Source of the DNA: Terriglobia bacterium
Lineage (GTDB): Bacteria > Acidobacteriota > Terriglobia > Terriglobales > Acidobacteriaceae
Assembly: GCA_020073495.1 (NCBI GenBank)
Contig: JAIQFD010000001.1
Span: 496,001 to 560,000, forward strand
Length of the DNA: 64,000 nt
Reading direction: 5' to 3'
Part shown: positions 26,751 to 28,949 of the stretch, one piece after another
Position numbering within the stretch: position 1 is the first letter of the stretch
Layout: each line of letters opens with the position of its first letter
Program-made: the position numbers and the translations under genes
Notes under the pieces: generated by a model
What the model was told of the DNA's origin: nothing
The model's database searches: none
Seen by the model: only the letters and a program-made list of their open reading frames with translations

Positions 26751-28753
26751 CAGATCCGTTTGAATGCCTTCTGGATATCCTTAAGACTATATCGCAGCAC
26801 CACCGGCCTCCCGTGCGGGCACGACATCGGCGCCTCGCATTTCGCCAGTTCTTTGATCAGCCACTCCATTTTTTCTGGCGTCAGCGGCATATTCACCTTG
26901 ATCGCCGCATGGCACGAGATCGAGGCTGCGATCTTGGCGCGCACTTTCTCGAGGTTTGTGGCCTGCTGCTCGCGCTCCACCTGGTCCAGCAGCTCGTGCA
27001 GCATGTGCTCGACGTCGGAGGCCTCGACGCCCGCGGGCGAAGTCTTCACCGCCACCGTGCGCGACCCGAATGGCTCGGCGTCGAAGCCGTTGTGGCGCAG
27101 CTCGTCGGCGATCTCCGCGAACACCGCCTGCTGCCCCGGCGCCAGCTCGATGATCAGCGGCATCAGCAGGCGCTGCGTCTCCACTTTCTCCGCCGCGCGC
27201 TGCCGCAGGATCTTCTCGAACAGAACGCGCTCGTGCGCCACGTGCTGATCGATGATCCACAGCCCCGCCTCGTTCACCGCCAGGATGAAACTGTCGCGCA
27301 ACTGTCCCAACGGCTTCAGCGACGACAGCGGCGGCACGTCACCCTCCGAGACGTCGGCGATCGCGCCCGCGCATCCGTCATCGTGCCGGATCGAGTATTG
27401 CTGCGGCGGAAGCTGCGCCACCGGTACCGCCGCATTCGCGATGACGTCGATCGGCGTCTCTGCAAATTCCAGACTCTGGTTCCGAGGCGGCATCTGCGGC
27501 GCGTGCAGCGCGAAATCCTGTGTGGGCCCACCGCCCTCGGCTGATTGTGTGGGCCAGCCGCCCCCGGCTGGCCTTGCGCCCGTGCTCAGCGCCGCCCCCG
27601 CCGTCGGCGACGCCTTGATCTCTGCCGTGAACTGCGGCACCGGACGCGCCTTCATCAGCGCCGCCCGCACCGAATCCCGCACAAAATCGTGAACGAACGA
27701 CTGCTGCCGGAACCGCACTTCGACCTTCGACGGATGCACATTCGCGTCGACCTCGCCATAAGGCAGCTCGATGAACAGCAGCACCACGGGAAAGACGGCC
27801 GGCGGGATGATGTTGCGATAAGCCTCGGTCAGCGCATGTTGGATGAGCCGGTCGCGGATCAGCCTCCCGTTCACAAACACGAAGATGGAATTGCGGTTGA
27901 GCTTCTGGATCTCCGGCTTGCTGACGAACCCGTGCACCCGCATCTCCCCCGGCGCCGGCGTTTCGTAATCCTCGCCGCGCCTCCACGGCGGAGGCTGCGG
28001 CAGCCCCACGCGCTCCAGCGGCGCCTGCGCCGCCAGCGGGATCAACTGCTCGAGTGTGTCCTTGCCGAACACCTGGTAGATGCGCTCCGCCGAGGTCTTC
28101 ACCGGCGGCGCGATCAGCATGGCGTTGGTCGCGGAATGCAGCTCGAAGTGCTTGTCGGGATGCGCCAGCGCGTAGTGCGTCACCAGCGCCGCGATGTGCC
28201 CCAGCTCGGTGGACTCGCTCTTGAGGAATTTCTTGCGCGCCGGCGTGTTGAAGAACAGGTCCTTGACCGTGATCGACGTCCCCGCCGGCAGTCCCGCTTC
28301 TTCGATCTTCAGGATGCGCCCGCCCGCGATCTCAACGATGGTCCCCGCCACTTTCGCTGTGTCATCCCGAGTGGCTTTAGCCGCGAGGGACCTGCTGTCG
28401 TCTTCCCGCGCGCACGTCTCCATCCTCAACCGCGATACTGCACCGATCGAGGGCAGCGCCTCCCCCCGGAATCCCAGGGTATGGATGTTCAGCAAGTCCT
28501 CGGCATCCTTGATCTTGGAGGTGGCGTGCCGCTCGAAGGCCAGCATGGCATCGTCGTGCACCATTCCGCTGCCGTCGTCTTGAACCTGGATCAGCTTCTT
28601 GCCGCCCGCCTCCACCTGCACGCGTATGCGATGCGCCCCCGCGTCCAGCGAATTCTCCAGCAGCTCTTTCACTACCGACGCAGGCCGCTCCACCACCTCG
28701 CCGGCGGCGATCTTATTCGCGACATGTTCCGGCAGCACATGGATCCTAGCCAC
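26750..28753 (-). CDS. mutL: DNA mismatch repair protein MutL
   Basis: A 667-residue mismatch-repair ATPase/endonuclease. The GHKL ATPase domain shows IAAGEVVERPASVVKELLEN, DDGSGM, and HATSKI followed by THTLGFRGEAL-like segments. The C-terminal nuclease motif DQHVAHERVLFE and the zinc site CPHGRP are intact, so it should nick DNA itself. The start is GTG. Two stretches look like translated REP elements: about residues 116-134 in the ATPase domain, and GARPAGGGWPTQSAEGGGPT in the linker. The next gene overlaps its stop by one base. Confidence 0.96.
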   Translation of the reverse strand: MARIHVLPEHVANKIAAGEVVERPASVVKELLENSLDAGAHRIRVQVEAGGKKLIQVQDDGSGMVHDDAMLAFERHATSKIKDAEDLLNIHTLGFRGEALPSIGAVSRLRMETCAREDDSRSLAAKATRDDTAKVAGTIVEIAGGRILKIEEAGLPAGTSITVKDLFFNTPARKKFLKSESTELGHIAALVTHYALAHPDKHFELHSATNAMLIAPPVKTSAERIYQVFGKDTLEQLIPLAAQAPLERVGLPQPPPWRRGEDYETPAPGEMRVHGFVSKPEIQKLNRNSIFVFVNGRLIRDRLIQHALTEAYRNIIPPAVFPVVLLFIELPYGEVDANVHPSKVEVRFRQQSFVHDFVRDSVRAALMKARPVPQFTAEIKASPTAGAALSTGARPAGGGWPTQSAEGGGPTQDFALHAPQMPPRNQSLEFAETPIDVIANAAVPVAQLPPQQYSIRHDDGCAGAIADVSEGDVPPLSSLKPLGQLRDSFILAVNEAGLWIIDQHVAHERVLFEKILRQRAAEKVETQRLLMPLIIELAPGQQAVFAEIADELRHNGFDAEPFGSRTVAVKTSPAGVEASDVEHMLHELLDQVEREQQATNLEKVRAKIAASISCHAAIKVNMPLTPEKMEWLIKELAKCEAPMSCPHGRPVVLRYSLKDIQKAFKRI
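27525..27573 (-). repeat. Family-C palindromic repeat inside mutL linker
   Basis: GTGTGGG precedes a perfect palindrome GGCCAGCCG-CCCC-CGGCTGGCC (27552-27573); a partly decayed second unit (TGTGTGGGCCCACCGCCCTC) lies beside it. The reading frame of mutL stays open through both. Confidence 0.7.
28358..28396 (-). repeat. REP element in frame inside the MutL ATPase domain
   Basis: A family-B edge TGTGTCATCCCGAG joins a family-A core GGCTTTAGCCGCGAGGGA. It is translated within MutL as part of DDSRSLAAKATRDDTAK. Confidence 0.65.
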
Positions 28754-28847
28754 GAGAGATCCTTCGCGGGGCTGGCGCCCCGCTCAGGACGACCCTGCGG
28801 GTCGTCTTGTTGGCGACATGTTCGGGAAGGACGTGAATGCGGGCCAT
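28746..28847 (-). other. Upstream ORF repeating the MutL N-terminus
   Basis: An ATG at 28847 opens a 33-codon frame whose first 14 residues, MARIHVLPEHVANK, are identical to MutL residues 1-14, although most codons differ synonymously. It then reads through a REP hairpin and stops at TAG (28748-28746), 8 nt inside the start region of mutL and in another frame. No ribosome site is seen. It could be a decayed old start of mutL or a leader ORF. Confidence 0.7.
28759..28805. repeat. Family-B hairpins in the mutL leader
   Basis: GATCCTTCG, the hairpin GCGGGGC-TGGC-GCCCCGC (28766-28783), CTCAGGACGAC and a second hairpin ACGACCC-TGC-GGGTCGT (28789-28805). Confidence 0.65.
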
Positions 28848-28852
28848 GGCAG

Positions 28853-28949
28853 TCGTCAGTCGCCAGTCGTCAGCGACCGTCCGCAGAGTAACGCAGATGT
28901 CCACGGTTGGAAATGGCTAGCAGCTAGGAGCTGGGAGCTAGTAGCTTCG
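28853..28949. repeat. CAGTCGTC and TAGCTGG stuttering words
   Basis: CAGTCGTCAGTCGCCAGTCG near 28853 and AGCTAGGAGCTGGGAGCTAG near 28922 fill the gap between mutL and the next gene. Confidence 0.6.

Follow-up and report, generated by a model that had tools for sequence, protein, structure and literature searches.

In Escherichia coli, the stop codon of a proven upstream open reading frame (ORF) overlaps the start of iraD (PMC5574718). Across prokaryotes, 8 nt is among the three commonest gene overlaps, and reinitiation is almost nil when stop and start lie about 20 nt apart (PMC10666635). A survey of CGTC repeats describes small, dispersed palindromes, some of them CGTC-tagged at one end, and names five phyla that have such repeats, Acidobacteria not among them (PMC3733652). 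We analysed a window of 64,000 nt from a Terriglobia bacterium (genome G000; contig JAIQFD010000001.1, positions 496,001–560,000) in which mutL is preceded by a REP-made leader ORF that copies the gene's own start. This structure, which occurs in a few soil acidobacteria, is real, rare and recurrent, and the leader is most likely coupled to mutL translation. Searches of the open-access literature returned nothing relevant on leaders of mutL or on duplicated starts.

A recoded copy of the mutL start in front of mutL

The leader ORF reads MARIHVLPEHVANK-TTRRVVLSGAPAPRRISRG (full translation MARIHVLPEHVANKTTRRVVLSGAPAPRRISRG). Its first copy of the mutL start (c1) and mutL's own first codons (c2) specify the same 14 residues but differ in 10 of 14 codons (11 of 42 nt), every change being silent when GTG is counted as a start (Table 1). 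The two starts are 94 nt apart, the 52 nt between c1 and the mutL GTG contain a REP, and the leader runs in the +1 frame, the last base of its TAG being nt 8 of mutL. The preliminary description had reported the repeated residues, the silent recoding, the passage through the REP and the position of the stop, and every one of these details is right.

Table 1. Features of the mutL start region, in window coordinates.
Feature	Position	Strand	Remarks
Leader ORF, ATG at 28847, 33 codons plus stop TAG	28746..28847	-	102 nt; stop position and frame the same in G001, G099 and SRVP_7
c1, first copy of mutL codons 1-14, ATG start	28806..28847	-	more conserved copy
Hairpin GACGACCC-GCA-GGGTCGTC	28788..28806	-	single-copy in each carrier genome (G000, G001, G099)
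REP unit GTCGTCCTGAGCG..GCGAAGGATCTC	28754..28793	-	inner stem GCGGGGC/GCCCCGC at 28783-28766
AAGGAT, Shine-Dalgarno-like, REP-derived	28759..28764	-	5 nt before mutL GTG; seen in the sequence, putative function
8-nt overlap GTGGCTAG, mutL start / leader stop	28746..28753	-	TAA/TAG here in 4/4 carriers, 8/105 others
mutL, GTG start at 28753, 667 codons	26750..28753	-	
c2, mutL's own codons 1-14	28753-28712	-	

The assignment of this REP to a family B can be refined. The element is of the local GTCATCCTGAGCG..GCGAAGGATCTC type, and this palindrome type is dispersed: other GTCATCCTGAGCG..GAAGGA units occur in the window and in two related genomes, G001 and G099. Its exact form is the 26-mer GACGACCCGCAGGGTCGTCCTGAGCG, whose left arm forms an 8-bp hairpin; it is identical in G000, G001 and G099, and no extra copy was found in any of the three with up to 3 mismatches allowed. 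The remaining REPs of the window have GTCATCC and no left arm. The AAGGAT motif lies inside the leader ORF, past two hairpins. An SD-like core precedes mutL in just 7 of 105 relatives, mutL mostly starting without an SD, and in G099 AAGGAT is 29 nt from the mutL start, where only a weak GAGG is left.

Two further repeats were seen nearby. A second REP lies in frame within the mutL coding sequence (window 28361-28392, about residues 118-134, DDSRSLAAKATRDDTA), with a counterpart in G001 (ENSRSLTPEGVRDDNA) and none in G099 or G004. Immediately 5′ of the leader ATG (28848-28875), the stretch GACGACTGGCGACTGACGACTGCC is similar to a dispersed repeat, to which G001 has many near matches.

Carriers, origins and rarity

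Comparison of the mutL 5′ region across relatives (about 110 distinct mutL start regions) found the layout of G000 again in G001 and G099, and an independent version in a Terriglobia MAG, SRVP_7 (L116); no relative was found to have the duplicated segment without a REP. G001, the single congener compared, has the same arrangement in a sequence of its own (ATGGGCCGC..AACAAG-ACGACCCGCAGGGTCGTC..GAAGGATCTCGC-GTGGGTAAG), with TAA at the position of the G000 stop. G099 belongs to another genus and ends its leader with TAA across ATGGGTAAG; its REP tail is 22 nt longer and its REP loop 1 nt shorter, changes that sum to +21 and thus keep the leader frame. These three leaders descend from one event, by inheritance or transfer, because GACGACCCGCAGGGTCGTCCTGAGCG is identical in all three and single-copy in each and the other REPs read GTCATCC. 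The MutL tree does not group G000, G001 and G099, an AU test does not reject their clade (p 0.256), and the tree thus leaves room for both inheritance and transfer; the leader may have spread horizontally between G000/G001 and G099.

Within a genome, codons 2 and 3 tend to agree between leader and mutL, yet they vary between genomes (A,R/A,R in G000; G,R/G,K in G001; G,K/G,K in G099). Two mutL alleles are present in the G099 bin, L051/L091 (G099:C370) and L080/L092 (G099:C318), which are 93% identical over 401 nt with silent differences only; C370 has the leader and C318 does not. The C318 allele may be an empty site or a product of deletion between the copies.

In SRVP_7, about 20 codons are duplicated around a different REP, with 133 nt from start to start. 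The leader is again in the +1 frame, with its TAA across ATGGGTAA, and the two copies are identical at 55 of 59 positions, the differences being silent. Because its MutL nests (98/84 support) among mutL genes with plain starts, the SRVP_7 duplication is independent of the event shared by the other carriers, giving at least two origins. Its leader stop is older than the duplication, because the stop-making GGTAAG start is present in c1 too.

The doubled start is rare. A doubled-mutL-start pattern matched in exactly 4 of 398 family genomes, namely G000, G001, G099 and G146; the sequence matched in the last of these is the SRVP_7 one. A narrower pattern run on 397 family genomes matched at mutL only in G001, its gap range and codon limits leaving out the others, and a pattern for the junction of c1 with the REP had no match in a search of genome contigs. 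A scan of about 1.05 Mb of partly redundant loci for genes that repeat their own start turned up no out-of-frame cases other than the four at mutL, the remaining high matches being in-frame protein repeats. In the 864 kb of this genome that were scanned, on which gene specificity within the genome rests (most of the comparison being centred on mutL), an out-of-frame match of 12/12 residues occurred at mutL only, the next best being 7/12.

Related arrangements were seen elsewhere. In L126 and L142, a REP end adjoins the mutL ATG without any c1, a plausible precursor of the doubled start. L149 has two REP-like units upstream of mutL, both with ATGGGT after them; the first of these opens an ORF of 38 codons, which ends 6 nt short of mutL. 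The doubling of this REP-plus-ATGGGT region is clear (score 23, reached by 0 of 2000 shuffles); we rejected its reading as a decayed leader (REP-ATGGGTAAGA..-REP-mutL), as the likeness between the REPs explains much of the signal and the coding part is not significant. A weak out-of-frame start repeat in L211 (MVGATGFELEALSGR / MVGATGFEPVTPCAQ, 109 nt apart; minus strand, offset 9247 of the reverse complement) is possibly doubled tRNA-like DNA read as protein.

Leader conservation and its explanations

From the leader ATG to mutL, G000 and G001 differ at 7 of 94 nt, against 32% at the fourfold sites of mutL (binomial 8e-9). Within this stretch, c1 differs at 2 of 42 nt (binomial 2e-5 against the same fourfold rate), and in c2 the count is 9 of 42. 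The 8-nt overlap is exact and the leader is in +1 in all four carriers, within the roughly 10 nt expected of a coupled leader. That the frame is kept in G099 despite its -1 and +22 nt, together with the low divergence of the leader, indicates that position and frame are kept by selection. The stop itself is built from base 3 of mutL codon 2 and bases 1-2 of codon 3. The excess of TAA/TAG at this site in carriers (Table 1) gives a Fisher value of 9e-5 with kinship ignored, and since G000, G001 and G099 share one origin, carrier counts are not four independent tests. In G000, the codons GCT AGG change TAA to TAG and so retain the stop: codon 3 is AGG, which makes up 6 of the 42 Arg codons downstream in this mutL, instead of the family's usual CGC. 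If the present stop were absent, the next leader-frame stops would lie 38, 374, 182 and 1070 nt inside mutL.

What does the leader do? On balance, we favour translational coupling, which had already been raised as one explanation and which the comparison strengthens through a frame, an 8-nt overlap and a stop shared by four genomes of two origins and through the conservation of the leader. A REP-associated duplication of the mutL 5′ end would have made a short upstream ORF out of the old start and codons 1-14, with the REP now between the old and new starts and bringing the SD-like AAGGAT to the new one. Ribosomes would load at the old, SD-less start, translate the leader, open the REP hairpins, terminate across the mutL GTG and initiate a second time at that codon. 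Against this mechanism, AAGGAT could load ribosomes without the leader and is far from the start in G099, the SRVP_7 stop is older than its duplication, and no clear -10 box was found 5′ of c1 in the carriers.

The leader could instead be an inert relic of REP activity, with c1 kept for promoter-proximal or 5′-mRNA elements and mutL translated independently from the REP-borne SD, an explanation we hold to be rather unlikely. Only 1 of the 14 third bases of c1 has changed between G000 and G001, so silent positions are conserved as well, and a constraint at the RNA or DNA level would fit this as well as coding. The close C318 allele of G099 manages without a leader, and REPs adjoin mutL starts that lack c1 in L126 and L142. 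Speaking against an inert relic are the frame and overlap kept in all carriers through length changes, the stop retained in G000, and the differences between c1 and c2, which are silent in three of four genomes and in the other amount to a single R/K exchange at codon 3. The idea of a conserved -10 positioned for leaderless mRNA is suggestive only, TANAAT lying 3-12 nt before the ATG in only 8 of 105 relatives.

The preliminary description had also proposed that a REP insertion cut off an older start and that recombination with a diverged mutL supplied a new one. All four carriers do have the REP; a diverged donor is not needed, because the SRVP_7 copies are 55/59 identical and because c2 changed most between G000 and G001 (9 against 2 nt), as would be expected of silent divergence after duplication. 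In its strict form, a diverged REP-bearing mutL was joined illegitimately into the resident gene, c1 being the resident start and c2 the donor's. This is unlikely in our judgement. It would explain why c1 looks native and is continuous with the upstream sequence, why silent change in c2 exceeds that in the rest of mutL (p 0.03-0.05), and how a single crossover yields a layout without a REP before c1. The near identity of the SRVP_7 copies speaks against it, as does the confinement of the raised divergence to the first 42 nt, the next 32 nt being identical between the two G099 alleles, and no donor was found among the about 110 mutL start regions. An assembly artefact or chance, for which only the draft and MAG status of the assemblies speaks, is practically negligible and is refuted by the relatives: four assemblies carry different sequences with diverged copies that no assembler would produce, and 864 kb of the genome contain no comparable out-of-frame match.

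How did the duplication arise? It is not a simple target-site duplication, because REPs elsewhere lack such flanking duplications. General target-site duplication by REPs was rejected: of 64 REPs in the loci, none but those at mutL and in a single REP array had long flanking repeats, and the 34 REPs of this genome gave one shared 12-mer. In both origins, the duplicated stretch starts at the start codon or within a few nt of it. The layout might stem from tandem duplication where a REP adjoined the start, the first REP being lost later, or from a single illegitimate crossover that joined an allele bearing a REP to one lacking it. Quite improbably, the locus could form a recurrent, reversible mismatch-repair switch, in which REP-driven duplication ties MutL to a coupled leader and recombination between the copies removes it. 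Populations would then vary their MutL dosage and with it their mutation rate, c2 would have been silently recoded under selection to slow leader loss, and the G099 allele that lacks the leader might be a product of such removal.

Comparison with known systems

On the reading that we favour, the locus shows a specific path, taken more than once, along which a small mobile palindrome turns a gene's own start into a new leader ORF and unites the components of a coupled leader: SD, hairpins and overlapping stop. With mutL as the gene concerned, a change in its dosage would affect mutation rate and recombination. The question can be put to the test in natural alleles with and without the leader (C370 and C318 of the G099 bin; SRVP_7 and its sisters).

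Some REPs and CGTC-tagged palindromes, among them the Rickettsia palindromic elements, are located within genes, like the one in this mutL; the passages of the survey drawn on here do not describe an insertion that duplicates a gene start (PMC3733652). The 8-nt overlap is shared with coupled overlapping gene pairs (PMC6728339, PMC10666635), whereas the upstream partner here is a leader of 33-46 codons and not a gene of known function. The mutL leader resembles that of iraD (PMC5574718), which is likewise a short ORF whose stop overlaps the gene start, with RNA structure around the gene's SD. In contrast to iraD, the mutL leader, whose translation is putative and any regulator of which would be hypothetical, copies the first codons of the gene that it precedes and was made together with the REP.
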